Shown: piece after piece, positions 10,270 through 15,283 of the stretch
Position numbering within the stretch: the first letter of the stretch is position 1
Layout of the letters: each line of letters starts with the position of its first letter
NCBI RefSeq assembly: GCF_000241465.1
Contig: NZ_JH584235.1
Span: 666,305 to 730,304 of the forward strand
Direction of reading: 5' to 3'
Length of the DNA stretch: 64,000 nucleotides
Source of the DNA: Sphingomonas echinoides ATCC 14820
GTDB lineage: Bacteria; Pseudomonadota; Alphaproteobacteria; Sphingomonadales; Sphingomonadaceae
The notes under the pieces: generated by a model
Database searches by the model: none
What the model was told of the DNA's origin: nothing
Seen by the model: only the letters and a program-made list of their open reading frames with translations
Program-made: the position numbers and the translations under genes

Positions 10270-10947
10270 ATGACAAAGAATTCCTTCGCCATCGTCGGGT
10301 TCGATCTCGACGGCACCCTGGTCGATAGCAGCGGCGATCTGACCGACGCGGTCAACCACACGCTCGCTTTTGCCGGGCGACCGTTACTGAGCGTCGAGCA
10401 AGTCAAGACGATGGTCGGCGGCGGGGCCAAGCACATGTTGACCCAGGGGCTGGAGGCGACCGGCGGCTGTACGCCCGACACCTTCCGTCCGCTCTACAAG
10501 CGCATGCTCGCTTATTATGGGGAGCATCTGTCGGTCCACACGCGGCCCTTCCCCGGCGTGATCGACGCTCTGGACCAGCTTGACGCGATGGGCGTGACGG
10601 TGGCGATCGTCACCAACAAGTTCGAAAGCTTCGCGTTGCGACTGCTCGACGATCTCGGCCTGCGCGAGCGGTTCGCGACGATCATCGGAGGCGACACGCT
10701 GGGCCCCGGCCTGTCCAAGCCCAACCGCGCCCCGATCGACGAAATGATCCGGCGCTGCGGTGGGGGAACTGCTGCCTTCGTCGGCGATTCGATTTACGAC
10801 ATCATGGCCGCGAGGAATGCCGAAATCCCCGGGATCGCGGTCAGCTTCGGCTTCCTGCTCCACCCGGTCGAGGAGATGGGTGCCGACGCGGTGATCGATT
10901 CGTTCGACGCGCTGGTGCCGACGCTCGAAAAACTCAGCCTCAGTTGA
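10270..10947 (+). CDS. gph: Phosphoglycolate phosphatase-like HAD hydrolase
   Basis: A 225-residue HAD-superfamily hydrolase with motif I GFDLDGTLVDS, motif II TNK, a motif III lysine (LSKPNRAP) and motif IV GDSIYDIMAA. The cap domain lies between motifs I and II, as in phosphoglycolate phosphatases (Gph), which remove 2-phosphoglycolate formed in DNA repair. I chose the ATG at 10270, just before the HAD motif. The gene is divergent from glmU and its 3' end overlaps the convergent lipoprotein gene by eight bases. Substrate specificity within the HAD family is inferred, not proven. Confidence 0.88.
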   Translation: MTKNSFAIVGFDLDGTLVDSSGDLTDAVNHTLAFAGRPLLSVEQVKTMVGGGAKHMLTQGLEATGGCTPDTFRPLYKRMLAYYGEHLSVHTRPFPGVIDALDQLDAMGVTVAIVTNKFESFALRLLDDLGLRERFATIIGGDTLGPGLSKPNRAPIDEMIRRCGGGTAAFVGDSIYDIMAARNAEIPGIAVSFGFLLHPVEEMGADAVIDSFDALVPTLEKLSLS

Positions 10948-11353
10948 GGATAAGCGCGTCCGAATTGATGTTATAGCCAATCAGCACCGGCTTGCCGTCC
11001 ACCACACGAAACGCGAAGGTTTCGGCCGCTTTGCCGCGCGCATAGTCAGATGCATAGTTGAGGGTGATGAAATGCCCGCCCGTCGTCACCTGGTCGTTCC
11101 AGCCGACTTGCTTGGCCGCCTTGGGCTGGCCCAGTTTTTTGACGACCACCGCCAGCAATTGCGTGAAGCGTGGCTTGGTCTCGGGAGCCGAGAGTTCCGG
11201 GCCGGAACTGGCGACGATCGCGTCGATCCGGCCCGCCCCCAAACGGTCGTGAAAGGCCTTCACGCTCGCCTCTGCCGCGGGGACATCCTTACCGGTCGAG
11301 CACGCCCCGACCGCCAAAGCGAGGCCGAAACCCAAAGAACGCCACATCTTCAT
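10940..11353 (-). CDS. Small lipoprotein, DUF4019-like
   Basis: A 137-residue protein with a lipoprotein signal (hydrophobic run then AVGAC) and a mature part of about 118 residues. That part begins with a helix (EASVKAFHDRLGAGRIDAIVA) and ends in beta strands, resembling DUF4019 / NTF2-like secreted proteins. The start at 11353 places the signal peptide correctly; an alternative Met lies two codons later. It is the last gene of the minus-strand block holding the nucleotidyltransferase, HprK-related kinase and PqqD-like genes, with a 50-base gap. Whether it belongs to that system is uncertain. Confidence 0.75.
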   Translation of the reverse strand: MKMWRSLGFGLALAVGACSTGKDVPAAEASVKAFHDRLGAGRIDAIVASSGPELSAPETKPRFTQLLAVVVKKLGQPKAAKQVGWNDQVTTGGHFITLNYASDYARGKAAETFAFRVVDGKPVLIGYNINSDALILN

Positions 11354-11403
11354 GCCGTTATCCCCCAATTGCGGGCGGTCTATGTCAGCCCCGCCCGGCG
11401 AGC

Positions 11404-12393
11404 CTAGCCTTTGCGCCACTTGGTCCACAAGTGCCGCGCCAGCATCGCGGGTGGCATGCGCAGCCAGTGCGAACGGATGTAGAAGGCCATGCGCGTAAAG
11501 GGCCGCGTCGCCCTGCCCCAACCATCGCGCGCGGTGAGGCGGCGGAGATAGAGACGGTCAGCCGGAGTCAATCGCGCGCCCTCGCCATACAGCGCCGCCG
11601 CCAACCGCAGCGCCCGCCCCACTTCGCGCGACAGGCCATGCTGCGCCGCCCGTCCGGCGAGGCCATCGGTGCCAAACTCGGCGATCAGGCAGTGCACGTC
11701 CCACAGATTGCGCATGCCGCCCGCCAGATCGCCATCGGCGAACAGGTGCGCTGCTGCATGGGCCAGCATATCATTGGGCGACAGCGCCCACAGACCGGGC
11801 TTCAGCTCCACCGCGTCCGCCAGCAGCGCGCCCGCATCCGGGGTAATCCGCGCGGTCAGCGGCAGGATGGTGTGGTGGACGTCGATCATCCGGTCACGGT
11901 CGCGGTGAATAAGCGGTGGCAGTTCGTGCATCCATTGCCGGTAATAGGCATCGTCATAGGGATCGGGCTTTACCCATTCCCAGCCAGCCTCGAGCAGCGC
12001 CGCCTCGACCGCATCCAGCGCCGCGCGCGGCACGAGAATGTCGAGATCGCCGATCGAGCGCCCCTGCCCCGCGTGCAAGCCCGCCGCGACAAAAGCGGTG
12101 CCCTTGAGCAGAACGACACGCACGCCGAGCGGCACCAGCACGCGCCGCGCCGCCTCCGCCTCCCACAAAGCCGCCACCCGCCCTTGTTCGGCGGACGCCC
12201 GCGCGTCGGCGAGGATATGCGCGACCGATGGCGGCACCGTCAGGCCATTGAGCCGCCATGCCAGCGTCCCGATCATCTGTTCGGCGCGGGCAATGGCGAG
12301 CAAGGCAGTCCATGCCTCCGCACCCAGCGCCACCGTGCCACCAGGATCGCGCAGCGTCTGTGCCAGCAGCCAGCCGTCTAGCGCGCGGCCCAT
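11404..12393 (-). CDS. Nucleotidyltransferase family protein (PF14907-like)
   Basis: A 329-residue protein of the uncharacterised nucleotidyltransferase family (NTP_transf_5). The core motifs are visible: VVLLKGTAF followed by GRSIGDLDILVPR, where the two aspartates are the likely metal ligands, and a later MIDVHHTILPL. The family is found with HprK-like kinases in lasso-peptide clusters such as paeninodin and in the HPr-rel-A cassette. The gene starts 16 bases inside the end of the HprK-related kinase gene, so the products are probably made together. The nucleotide used and the acceptor are unknown. Confidence 0.85.
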   Translation of the reverse strand: MGRALDGWLLAQTLRDPGGTVALGAEAWTALLAIARAEQMIGTLAWRLNGLTVPPSVAHILADARASAEQGRVAALWEAEAARRVLVPLGVRVVLLKGTAFVAAGLHAGQGRSIGDLDILVPRAALDAVEAALLEAGWEWVKPDPYDDAYYRQWMHELPPLIHRDRDRMIDVHHTILPLTARITPDAGALLADAVELKPGLWALSPNDMLAHAAAHLFADGDLAGGMRNLWDVHCLIAEFGTDGLAGRAAQHGLSREVGRALRLAAALYGEGARLTPADRLYLRRLTARDGWGRATRPFTRMAFYIRSHWLRMPPAMLARHLWTKWRKG

Positions 12394-13238
12394 GCCGCCT
12401 CCACCAGCGCGATCGCGCCATCGGTATCGGGATAGTCAATCGCGCGCGCAGGTACGCCTTGCACCAGCCCGGTCAGCGCATCGAAGCCGCGCTCGCCCAT
12501 TGCGACATAGTTGGTCGAGGCCTGGGTGAGGCGCACGAACACTTCGCTTTGCGCCACATCGCGCGTCGCCGATTCATAGCCAAAGCTTGGGAACAGGATC
12601 AGCGCGGGTCTGGCCGGAACATCCATCCCCGCCAGCGCCGCCGCATCGGGAACAAGATGGCGGATAGTGCCCTTGGGCGTGCCTTCCAGCACCGGCCCGA
12701 GCCGATCGACCGGCACTTCGGCAGCGACGGTTGCGACGCTGGCGTTCTTGAGGCTCACCAGCCGGGGAAAGGCGTGCAGCAAGCCTGTCGCGGGATCGAG
12801 CAAGGCGAACTCGTCGCCCATCAAGCGCCAGCCGCGCAGCGACAGCAACGCCGCCAAGGTCGATTTGCCCGCGCCCGACACGCCGGTGAGGATCAGCGCC
12901 TGCCCGTCGCGCTCGACCACGGCAGCGTGGAGCAGCAGAAAATGCCGCTGGCCCAGCGCCATCTGCAAATTCATCCCCATTTCGGCGGCGAGCAGCCCTT
13001 GCGCGAGCGGAAGCGGTGCCGCCTCGGGCAGAACATAATCGCCGCCAATCATCACCGCTGGCCGCACGACCCGCCGCCACGACCGCGCCGCGAACAGGCG
13101 CACAGTGAAATCGGGCACACCGTCCACAGGCTTGGGATAAGCGGCATAGAGCGCTTCGAGCTGCGCGATCGGCGCGCGCCAATCGGAGCCGATGCGAAAA
13201 CCGACCGGGCCGATCCGTACCTGAAACACATGCCTCAT
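12378..13238 (-). CDS. HprK-related kinase A
   Basis: A 286-residue ATPase/kinase related to the C-terminal domain of HPr kinase/phosphorylase. A P-loop GVSGAGKST sits at residues 119-127, preceded by the HprK-like LLHAAVVERDGQALIL and followed by RGWRLMGDEFALLD, where D142/E143 occupy the position of the HprK acidic pair. It lacks the N-terminal HprK domain; about 100 residues of a different beta-rich region replace it. It overlaps the PqqD-like gene by ATGA. Homologues in lasso-peptide clusters phosphorylate a C-terminal serine of the precursor peptide. By analogy this enzyme may phosphorylate a peptide or small protein, possibly the product at 13527-13919; that is inference. Confidence 0.88.
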   Translation of the reverse strand: MRHVFQVRIGPVGFRIGSDWRAPIAQLEALYAAYPKPVDGVPDFTVRLFAARSWRRVVRPAVMIGGDYVLPEAAPLPLAQGLLAAEMGMNLQMALGQRHFLLLHAAVVERDGQALILTGVSGAGKSTLAALLSLRGWRLMGDEFALLDPATGLLHAFPRLVSLKNASVATVAAEVPVDRLGPVLEGTPKGTIRHLVPDAAALAGMDVPARPALILFPSFGYESATRDVAQSEVFVRLTQASTNYVAMGERGFDALTGLVQGVPARAIDYPDTDGAIALVEAAWAAR

Positions 13239-13489
13239 GCGACCGCGACCAGACCGGCTGCCACCAATTCGTCGAGCCGCGCGTCCAACGCCGCTTCGTC
13301 GGCATCGCCCAGCAGATAATCGACCGACAAGCGCGCCATCAAATCGACCCGCCGCATCCCTGCTTCGCCCAAGGCCGCGAGAATCTCCGGTACGGGCGAC
13401 GTGACCAAATGCGTGATGCCCGACGCGCGGTGAAACACTGCGGTGAAGCTGTCGAGGTGCGTGATCTTCAGCGTTTCCGGCCGCGCCAT
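13235..13489 (-). CDS. HPr-rel-A system PqqD-like peptide chaperone
   Basis: An 84-residue PqqD-like protein. PqqD folds are RiPP recognition elements (RRE) that bind leader peptides and hand them to modifying enzymes. The pattern TAVFHRASGITHLV near residue 16, then a helical region rich in leucine and ending VAAGLVAVA, matches the PqqD fold with its winged-helix order. The start is uncertain: I used the ATG at 13489, but in-frame codons just upstream, including a GTG at 13500-13498, could extend it by a few residues. It is the first of three overlapping genes with the kinase and nucleotidyltransferase. Confidence 0.82.
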   Translation of the reverse strand: MARPETLKITHLDSFTAVFHRASGITHLVTSPVPEILAALGEAGMRRVDLMARLSVDYLLGDADEAALDARLDELVAAGLVAVA

Positions 13490-13526
13490 GCGATACACGA
13501 TATCGCCACGGGAATCGTCCACGGCG

Positions 13527-13919
13527 TCAGCCGCGCGGCATTTGCAGCGATGCGAAGCAGGTGAACCCACTCGTCCCCGATTGCAGCCGCCGGATATAAT
13601 TGGTGTAGGCGCGGCTCTGCTCGTAATTGGTGCCGGGCAATTGACCGCCCGCCAGCGCGGTCTTGACCTCTTCGCCTTTGAACGGTCGGCCAGGCGGCGC
13701 GAACGCACCCCGCGTGCCGGCGGGCACCACCGTACCGTCGGCGGCGATATAGCTGCCCGCGCGCCCCGAATCCGGCACCGGAATCTCACAGGTCGAAATC
13801 GATGCCGCTGTCGACGCCAGCGCCGGGCGGATCGACACCACCGCCGCTGCACCGACCGCGCCAAGCATCAACGCCCGGCGGCGCGTGGTGTTCGGAAGTT
13901 CAGGCGTATCGTCGTTCAT
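13527..13919 (-). CDS. Small exported protein with twin-arginine signal, first gene of the PqqD/HprK-like block
   Basis: A 130-residue protein of unknown function. After a short acidic leader it has TTRRRALMLGAVGAAAV and a likely cleavage site at RPALA, a Tat-type signal. The mature part is about 90 residues and includes exactly two cysteines, one near its start (STCEIP) and one near its end (FTCFASLQMPRG), so a disulfide is possible. It sits 37 bases upstream of the PqqD-like gene on the same strand. It is therefore a candidate substrate or effector of the kinase/nucleotidyltransferase set. No domain is recognised; the role is inference from position only. Confidence 0.75.
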   Translation of the reverse strand: MNDDTPELPNTTRRRALMLGAVGAAAVVSIRPALASTAASISTCEIPVPDSGRAGSYIAADGTVVPAGTRGAFAPPGRPFKGEEVKTALAGGQLPGTNYEQSRAYTNYIRRLQSGTSGFTCFASLQMPRG

Positions 13920-13999
13920 TGCACTAGCCCTTTCACATTCGCAAAAGGCTGGCAAGCAAGGCTATCGGGGTTAACGATCTTTAGGCTAAGGCGCGGCGC

Positions 14000-15271
14000 A
14001 TGCTCCAAGGTTTCGGCTCTCGAACGATTACTGCCATCGCCCTCGTGGTCGTGGCGGCGATCGCGGTCTTTTTGCTCGATTGGGATCTGCAGCCCGCGAT
14101 CATCACGCTGGTCGGTGGCATCGCCGCGGCGTTGGCGGCAACGGGCACCGGCGACGGACCGATCGAAATGCTGCGTCCGGTCGAAAGCGTGCGCCAGCCC
14201 AGCCCCCCGGACGTGCAGGAGATTATCCAGGCGATCGTGCAACCCGTGCTGATCGTGGCGGACGGGCGCGTCACCCACGCCAACACGGTCGCCCTGGCGC
14301 TGCTCGGCAAGCATATTGTCGGCGAGGATGTCCGCGTCGCCATCCGCCACCCCGGTGCGGCAGAGCGTCTGGCCAGCCCCACCACCGGGGTTCCGCAAGG
14401 GCCGATCAACCTGGTCGGGCTGGGCACGAAGGACCAGCATTGGGAAATGCACGTCACCCGCGCCAGCGGTGGGCAACGGATCGTCCAACTGGTCGACCAG
14501 ACCGGCAACTATGCCGCCGAGCGGATGCGAGTCGACTTCGTGGCCAATGCCAGCCACGAACTGCGCACCCCGCTCGCGTCGATCCTCGGCTATATCGAGA
14601 CGCTGGGCGACGACAAAGCGGGCGAGGATGCGCAGGTTCGCGGTCGGTTCCTGAAGATCATGTTCGACGAAGCGCGCCGTATGCAGCGCCTGGTCGAGGA
14701 TCTCATTTCGCTCAGCCGGATCGAGGCCGAAAAATACCGCTTGCCCGATCGGGCGGTCGATCTGGGCGCGTTGATCAGCGAGGTCCGCTCCGAATTGCTG
14801 GATGCGCAGGACAAACGCAGCGGCGACATTGTCACCGATATCGACCTTGGCGTCCCCCCGGTCGCGGGCGACCGTGCCCAATTGAGCCAGGTGCTCCACA
14901 ATCTGATCGGCAATGCCATGAAATATGGGCGGCCAGGGTCGCCGATCACCGTAAAATTGTGGCGCGATGCGGCGGGCACGGTGCGCATCAGTGTCGGCGA
15001 CGAAGGCGACGGGATCGCCCCCGAGCATCTTCCGCGGTTGACCGAACGGTTTTACCGCGTCGATCCGGGCCGCAGTCGCGCCGCGGGTGGCACCGGACTT
15101 GGTCTCGCCATCGTCAAGCACATCATCGAACGCCATCGCGGCCGGTTCGACGTCACCAGCACCTTGGGCAAAGGCACGACGGTCACCGTCATGCTGCCCG
15201 CGCACGTTCAGACCTATCAGGCCAAAACAGCATCGACGTCCGACCCGAAAGCCACTGTCATCAAACGGTAA
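14000..15271 (+). CDS. phoR: Phosphate regulon sensor histidine kinase PhoR
   Basis: A 423-residue membrane kinase. Two N-terminal TM segments (about 8-48) are followed by a PAS-like region. HisKA has NASHELRTPLASILGY, then come N-box HNLIGNAMKYG, G1 GDEGDGI, F-box ERFYRVD and G2 GGTGLGLAIVKHI. It phosphorylates PhoB when phosphate is short, controlled through PstSCAB-PhoU, all encoded directly downstream. Gene order phoR-pstS-pstC-pstA-pstB-phoU-phoB is a well-known alphaproteobacterial arrangement. The stop codon lies inside the Pho box for pstS. It is divergent from the small exported protein gene, with 80 bases between them. Confidence 0.95.
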   Translation: MLQGFGSRTITAIALVVVAAIAVFLLDWDLQPAIITLVGGIAAALAATGTGDGPIEMLRPVESVRQPSPPDVQEIIQAIVQPVLIVADGRVTHANTVALALLGKHIVGEDVRVAIRHPGAAERLASPTTGVPQGPINLVGLGTKDQHWEMHVTRASGGQRIVQLVDQTGNYAAERMRVDFVANASHELRTPLASILGYIETLGDDKAGEDAQVRGRFLKIMFDEARRMQRLVEDLISLSRIEAEKYRLPDRAVDLGALISEVRSELLDAQDKRSGDIVTDIDLGVPPVAGDRAQLSQVLHNLIGNAMKYGRPGSPITVKLWRDAAGTVRISVGDEGDGIAPEHLPRLTERFYRVDPGRSRAAGGTGLGLAIVKHIIERHRGRFDVTSTLGKGTTVTVMLPAHVQTYQAKTASTSDPKATVIKR

Positions 15272-15283
15272 CGTCAATGTCAC
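15255..15283 (+). promoter_or_regulatory. Pho box upstream of pstS
   Basis: Three PhoB half-sites with 11-base spacing: CTGTCAT at 15255-15261, CGGTAAC at 15266-15272 and ATGTCAC at 15277-15283. The first is a perfect match to the PhoB consensus heptamer and the third a near match; the middle one is weaker. The box spans the phoR stop codon and lies about 65-90 bases before the pstS ATG. Binding is inferred from the consensus and from the regulon genes around it. Confidence 0.7.

Follow-up and report, generated by a model that had tools for sequence, protein, structure and literature searches.

The stretch of DNA analysed here (the window) comprises 64,000 nucleotides from Sphingomonas echinoides ATCC 14820 (contig NZ_JH584235.1, positions 666,305 to 730,304 of the forward strand). 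Its minus strand carries a unit of four genes, coding for a small protein with a twin-arginine leader, a PqqD-like protein, an HprK-related kinase and a nucleotidyltransferase, and we discuss below the relation between the small protein and the products of the other three genes. The small protein, the predicted precursor or substrate (13527..13919, 130 aa), begins MNDD...TTRRRALMLGAVGAAAVVSIRPALAS and has two cysteines, C44 and C121. Its leader, from R14 to A35 (the RRALMLGAVGAAAVVSIRPALA region, 13815..13880), is of the type used by the twin-arginine translocation (Tat) pathway, and its C-terminal tail (residues 117–130, SGFTCFASLQMPRG, 13530..13571) is highly conserved. The gene for the PqqD-like protein (13235..13522, a GTG start being assumed) overlaps the kinase gene (12378..13238) by 4 bases, and the latter overlaps the nucleotidyltransferase gene (11404..12393) by 16 bases. 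A previous reading of the same DNA, made from the sequence only, had described five genes on this strand (these four and a lipoprotein gene) and an overlap of the last three of the four; the reading frames and the coordinates bear out both statements.

That sequence-only reading had also named the three accessory enzymes correctly, since all of them exceed curated cut-offs. The PqqD-like protein, of the type of the recognition elements (RRE) of ribosomally synthesized and post-translationally modified peptides (RiPPs), is present in one copy in the genome and matches PqqD_rel_X (TIGR04353, the HPr-rel-A system peptide chaperone) with 52.8 bits for a cut-off of 35; the kinase matches HprK_rel_A (TIGR04352, HprK-related kinase A) with 236.9 bits (cut-off 200), and the nucleotidyltransferase matches PF14907 (NTP_transf_5) with 160.9 bits (cut-off 31.2). 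The kinase, together with a PqqD_rel_X protein encoded in the same operon, places the set in the HPr-rel-A system. Judging from its sequence, the kinase is a relative of HprK, and not HprK itself: it scores 17.9 bits against the HPr(Ser) kinase equivalog TIGR00679, whose cut-off is 240, and its profile aligns the stretch that contains the Walker A motif, the histidine and the aspartate to HprK structures (1jb1, for instance, with E=0.00086). H104, the Walker A residues G124-K125-S126-T127 and D142, which we take to be the active-site residues of an HprK-type enzyme, are kept in 71–72 of 72 aligned frames, a set that includes both copies of contigs fetched twice (L096/L137 and L097/L138) and two kinases below the cut-off (L152 and L153). 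The nucleotidyltransferase likewise keeps the residues expected in its active site: K97, G98, R112, D116 and D118 are conserved in 126–127 of 127 frames.

The models that define the HPr-rel-A system do not cover the precursors: the window precursor matches no Pfam or NCBIfam family over cut-off, and the same is true of all of 10 diverse precursors. A protein search with the window precursor returned 2182 homologues at E<=0.001. Among 121 genomes of the genus, a kinase over the TIGR04352 cut-off is found in 98 and a precursor in 99. All 98 kinase genomes have the precursor; in the 99th precursor genome (G062) the adjoining kinase is cut short and scores 178.8 bits. The remaining 22 genomes have neither a precursor nor a kinase over the cut-off, and 21 of them give weak HprK-like matches. 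Kinase and precursor lie on one contig in 98 of the 99 pairs, their starts being at most 1266 bases apart. The test proposed in the sequence-only reading, that the exported protein should accompany the enzymes from genome to genome, is thus passed by 98 of 98 kinase genomes of the genus and, for a protein with the same leader, by 55 of 61 in a sample of the phylum, as described below. One of the 22 genomes without the pair (G018, locus L163) carries a decaying cassette, with a short kinase fragment and a broken nucleotidyltransferase between phoR/pst and gph; no precursor was found anywhere in this genome.

Beyond the genus, the kinase exceeds the cut-off in 61 of the 398 genomes of a phylum sample and in 8 of the 289 genomes of a class sample, which makes 67 distinct genomes (two are in both). 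Neighbourhoods were fetched for 64 of them, the others being the window, one locus of the genus scan and one locus known by its positions. A protein with a twin-arginine leader stands beside the kinase in 60 of the 67 genomes, as a rule just upstream of the PqqD gene; exceptions to this order are L120, where the precursor gene is inverted, and L138, where it lies downstream at the end of the contig. The precursor is unlinked from the kinase in six genomes, and none was seen in G308, a genome that is 57% complete and whose kinase lies at a contig end.

We built a model of the leader (43 positions, from 20 leaders) and ran it on whole genomes. On 26 chosen genomes it gives one match in 13 of the 15 that have the kinase and none in the 11 that do not, three of the 15 having supplied rows of the model and at most 150 candidates being scored per genome. 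On the phylum sample, at E < 1e-6, it matches 55 of the 61 kinase genomes (39 of 45 without the 16 genomes that supplied rows) and 0 of the 337 others, where absence is less than exhaustive since at most 18 candidates were scored per genome; these 337 genomes include 15 with HprK-like matches below the cut-off. The model is therefore specific to kinase genomes, and its matches are not explained by generic Tat signals. Weak matches in nine kinase-less genomes (E from 1e-4 to 1e-3) are taken to be ordinary Tat signals. In five of the six kinase genomes that the model misses (G413, G389, G422, G457 and G139), a leader protein can be recognised next to the kinase; four of these five were seeds of the hidden Markov model (HMM) used on the loci, and L107 of G457 only reaches E=0.03. 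Since 36 of the same loci went into that HMM, the tests on whole genomes and on named loci are more independent. Two strong leader matches occur in G304 (C66:2138-2239 and C392:65209-65310), which has one kinase over the cut-off; one enzyme set may therefore serve two precursors.

Named genomes give a similar picture. Kinase loci occur in Sphingomonas, Sphingobium, Sphingopyxis, Nitrosomonas, Thiobacillus, Duganella, Massilia, Herbaspirillum, Zooshikella, Kordiimonas and other genera. Among the best 80 of 183 confirmed loci, which may overlap with the phylum sample, the leader HMM (E<0.01) finds the precursor within the locus in 70. It is plain by eye in five more (L241, L244, L256, L262 and L275), and lies elsewhere, beside phoR, in three genomes (two of Sphingopyxis and one of another member of the Sphingomonadaceae); L267 ends just before the place of the precursor, and none was found in L239. 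A search with the precursor of G228 returned 21 proteins, those with names being mostly from Magnetococcales. A search of plasmids for the kinase gave 8 records, which were used only as leads.

What the precursors share is mainly their leader. Its form is RRxLLKG...P.I.TL.SG.A.A, and R14, R15, L17, G20, A21 and the stretch S29-A35 are invariant in an alignment of 44 chosen homologues. In 56 representatives chosen at <40% identity in the mature part, the leaders are 37.5% identical (22.1% when shuffled) and the mature parts 23.5% (21.4% when shuffled), a comparison read without a control set of other Tat proteins; the kinases from 26 of the same 56 loci are 37.0% identical. Outside Sphingomonadales the body of the precursor is unrecognisable and the leader is kept. 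Most precursors have some 130–290 residues, and the shortest untruncated one has 93 (start codons were not refined). Ordinary signal peptides usually diverge faster than the exported mature parts that they precede. Constancy of the leader, on a body that changes, is a trait of RiPP precursors. The layout is that of a RiPP-like pathway in general: a precursor conserved in its leader and divergent in the rest is encoded together with a recognition element and with enzymes that would modify it.

Breaks in the operon do not undo the pairing. In G075, the exception among the 99 pairs of the genus, the precursor is beside phoR and the three enzymes are beside gph-glmU: the operon has come apart there without the loss of either part. 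The six genomes of the phylum sample whose precursor is unlinked (G333, G387, G200, G244, G188 and G142) are of more than one kind. In G387, G244, G188 and G142 the PqqD gene adjoins the precursor, away from the kinase, while in G333, as in G075, it stays with the kinase and the precursor is alone beside phoR. The PqqD-like protein therefore goes with either partner, and each split that we examined retains the precursor. These observations bear on the idea that the leader proteins are an ordinary homologous family of Tat-exported proteins, the operon being kept by descent without any functional dependence. It is true that the neighbourhood is widely kept in Sphingomonadales, where phoR adjoins the set in 38 of 43 loci and gph or glmU does so in 33 of 43 (few kb were fetched for each, and L173 and L205, which lie on one contig, are both counted). 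However, precursor and kinase are jointly absent from 22 of the 121 genomes of the genus, other classes keep the pairing among different neighbours, both parts of split copies are retained, and conservation is higher in the leader than in the mature part. We consider conservation by mere descent very improbable.

Enzymes of the same types modify leader-bearing peptides in two known systems. The first is the system of the linear polyphosphorylated peptides (LPP) of Bacillota (PMC13381572, Nat Commun, May 2026). LPP clusters encode a discrete RRE, an HprK-like kinase, an NTP-transferase, a SipW-like peptidase and an MsbA-like exporter; the precursors, of 35–200 aa, have a conserved N-terminus and a variable C-terminus, no lasso cyclase is needed, and the kinase polyphosphorylates Ser3 of the core. 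The set described here resembles LPP in its RRE, its HprK-like kinase, its NTP-transferase and the layout of its precursors, whose sizes (about 90–290 residues) overlap with those of LPP. It differs in the leader, which has the consensus YxxPxVLxHQxIxFETxxS in LPP (PMC13381572) and the twin-arginine form RRxLLKG... in the present sets; the core [YW]xxPx[LVIAFY] that lasso and LPP leaders share is found before the cleavage region in 2 of 130 precursors. We saw no SipW-like peptidase or MsbA-like exporter adjoining the set, no model search for either having been made. Judging from its neighbours, the set also differs from LPP in its likely export route. The LPP paper contains no mention of Pseudomonadota, Proteobacteria, Sphingomonas or twin-arginine (PMC13381572).

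The second system is that of phosphorylated lasso peptides. An HprK-like kinase modifies the C-terminal serine of paeninodin and of pseudomycoidin (PsmK), and PsmN, a nucleotidyltransferase homologue, is credited with the addition of hexoses to the phosphoserine, a contribution of host enzymes not being excluded (PMC9266682). One could therefore regard the cassette as a degenerate or partial cluster of this kind, since paeninodin-type clusters have an RRE, an HprK-like kinase and a nucleotidyltransferase as their accessory enzymes (PMC9266682, PMC13381572). However, the B2 protease, whose absence from the locus had already been remarked, is missing from the whole genome, which is listed as 100% complete (no match to PF13471), and the set is not a lasso cluster. 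No macrolactam cyclase was seen among its neighbours, no genome-wide search having been made. The present sets also differ from lasso clusters in that they have neither the lasso leader motif, save for the two precursors mentioned above, nor a short peptide: the precursors are mostly of some 130–290 residues and carry a twin-arginine leader. That the cassette is the remnant of a lasso cluster is hardly credible. Two TIGR03108 amidotransferases of other loci (L106:7927-9840 and L114:8367-10256) also match the lasso cyclase model NF033535, with 239.5 and 291.6 bits for a cut-off of 525.

A different explanation is that the PqqD-like protein is a chaperone of the proof-reading type for a Tat signal, the exported protein being a partner of the enzymes that they do not modify, and that the target of the kinase is a small molecule or some other protein. 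Chaperones of the redox-enzyme type do read Tat-type leaders, the conserved stretch is such a leader, and in some genomes the kinase is apart from the precursor and the PqqD gene. However, the same types of enzymes modify a leader-bearing peptide in the published LPP and lasso systems, and the bodies of the precursors are unrelated between clades whereas the kinases are alike, which is expected for substrates, not for partners. We regard this explanation as unlikely, though less so than the two considered above.

We argue that the 130-residue leader protein is probably the dedicated substrate of the set. The enzymes would attach a phosphate to it and then, as is likely, a sugar or a nucleotide, before its likely export by the Tat pathway. 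This reading is supported by the co-occurrence of precursor and kinase genome by genome, by the conservation of the leader on a diverging body, by the pairing that survives splits and by the active-site residues that both enzymes keep. In LPP and lasso systems, an RRE and an HprK-like kinase are established to act on a leader-bearing peptide, at one of its serines, which supports an analogous action here (PMC13381572, PMC9266682), and we infer that the set works like these systems. In the mechanism that we propose, the PqqD-like protein would bind the leader, in the manner of RiPP recognition elements, and bring the precursor to the kinase; the kinase would then act on a conserved serine, and the nucleotidyltransferase may work on the phosphoserine, as reported for PsmN. 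The leader would finally serve as an ordinary Tat signal, so that the system could do without a private protease or exporter; the use of the Tat pathway is predicted from the RR pattern. In full-text searches of openly licensed PMC papers, we saw no substrate given for HPr-rel-A enzymes.

Regarding the residue that is modified, the first candidate is S124, in the Cys-Phe-Ala-Ser of the tail, and the second is S40, behind the leader. These are the serines that are invariant behind the leader in the 44 chosen homologues, S124 belonging to the tail sequence TCFASLQ, in which C121, A123, S124 and L125 are invariant. Similarly, in 21 relatives of the Magnetococcales type, the only invariant serine behind the leader is S177, in a terminal CW-x-S-F, and S64, directly behind the leader, is nearly invariant. 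Two large groups of precursors have Cys-Trp/Phe-x-Ser near their end; C[WF]xS is found in Magnetococcales as it is in the window precursor. Of 60 precursor rows (L096 and L137, the same contig, are both counted), 42 have the motif C[WFY]xS within their final 60 residues, against 18 of 2414 other frames. The structure model of the window precursor has a pLDDT of 63 and a pTM of 0.50, with pLDDT<50 at 117-119 and 122-130; this low-confidence modelling fits a flexible tail and is no proof of it. Foldseek found no PDB match to this model at E<=0.001. The model of a Magnetococcales precursor (pLDDT 57, pTM 0.45) was not used.

The surroundings of the set may say something of its function. Both in the window and in S. 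parapaucimobilis, it is flanked by phoR-pst and gph-glmU-glmS. In four loci outside the order, chosen for their likeness to polysaccharide loci (L105, L106, L114 and L123), the cut-offs of models of the XrtA/PEP-CTERM system are exceeded by eight proteins encoded nearby: the glycosyltransferase TIGR03087, the amidotransferase TIGR03108, the export protein TIGR03027, the chain-length determinant TIGR03007, the FemAB protein TIGR03019 and the deacetylase TIGR03006. These exopolysaccharide neighbours make a role of the set at the cell surface or in the matrix possible. LPP clusters are often found in capsule or polysaccharide loci (PMC13381572). We suggest tentatively, as a possibility that we would not call probable, that in a pathway dispersed among the Pseudomonadota a Tat signal also serves as a RiPP leader, read by the PqqD-type recognition element, that kinase and nucleotidyltransferase place a phospho-sugar or phospho-nucleotide on a conserved serine of a precursor of protein size, and that the phosphoglycoprotein, once exported by Tat, anchors or primes exopolysaccharide at the cell surface.

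Several observations weigh against these proposals. The co-occurrence of kinase and precursor shows a functional link, not the identity of the substrate. An iterated search over 146 kinase loci found no PqqD in 14, four of which have it beside the unlinked precursor, and no nucleotidyltransferase in 11 (L173 and L205 are again both counted). Deletion of the LPP NTP-transferase had no effect in the host tested (PMC13381572), and the second modification is therefore the weakest step. With the Pfam TAT model, one of ten precursors gives a match, at no better than E=0.24. Of 130 rows, 54 lack the Cys-aromatic-x-Ser tail, and so do most named precursors from outside Sphingomonadales (L096, L137, L173 and L205 are all counted), which means that no single universal modified residue is established; most of the beta/gamma precursors are without it. 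A Ser-Gly-rich stretch follows the leader in 26 of these 54 rows and in 140 of 4192 background frames, which is weak evidence since the regular expression was shaped on the sequences that were counted. Last, exopolysaccharide neighbours are not universal: the window has phoR-pst and gph-glmU instead, and a Vibrio locus has fatty-acid and aminoethylphosphonate genes.

Between the four-gene unit and gph lies a gene (10940..11353, minus strand) for a lipoprotein of 137 aa, with a lipobox-like start recognised by eye and no Pfam or NCBIfam family over cut-off. The sequence-only reading had counted it as a member of the cassette; we have dropped it from the set, since of the 43 Sphingomonadales loci inspected just 3 have a relative, and two of these 3 are a single contig that was fetched twice. 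A Pho-box-like sequence, CTGTCATCAAACGGTAAC, is present at 15255-15272, before pstS, in the divergent phoR-pst cluster that adjoins the set. The window contains 6 such matches for 2.7 expected by chance. Control of the set by PhoB was considered and dropped: the match precedes pstS, and there is none in 13919-14000.

Several loci of the beta/gamma type (L107:4002-4844, L105, L108, L121 and L125) encode exported serine proteases of similar appearance, of about 260–280 aa, which adjoin the cassette or lie close to it. That of L107 resembles MarP/HtrA proteases, below the cut-off, and such an enzyme could trim the exported product. One genome of the genus (G110) gives 15 matches to the model of HprK-related kinases, L157 among them, and one of the 15 is over the cut-off. 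HprK-like kinases below the cut-off (L005:7164-8564, and in L148, L150, L155 and L156) lie near mini-proteins of ~70–95 residues with a leader of the form RR...P...LL, and the kinase/mini-protein locus of Leisingera (L005) adjoins a giant Ig-like surface protein. The precursors with leaders of this general kind may form a larger family.

The HPr-rel-A enzymes are already named in databases; what this study adds is that almost all sampled kinase genomes encode a protein with a matching leader, and this pairing converts an "unknown substrate" into a list of proteins that can be tested. If the modification is true, the chemistry of phosphorylated RiPP-like products would reach from the peptides of Bacillota to Tat-type proteins, it would span Sphingomonas, Magnetococcales, Nitrosomonas, Massilia and others, and RiPP recognition would be joined to Tat export.

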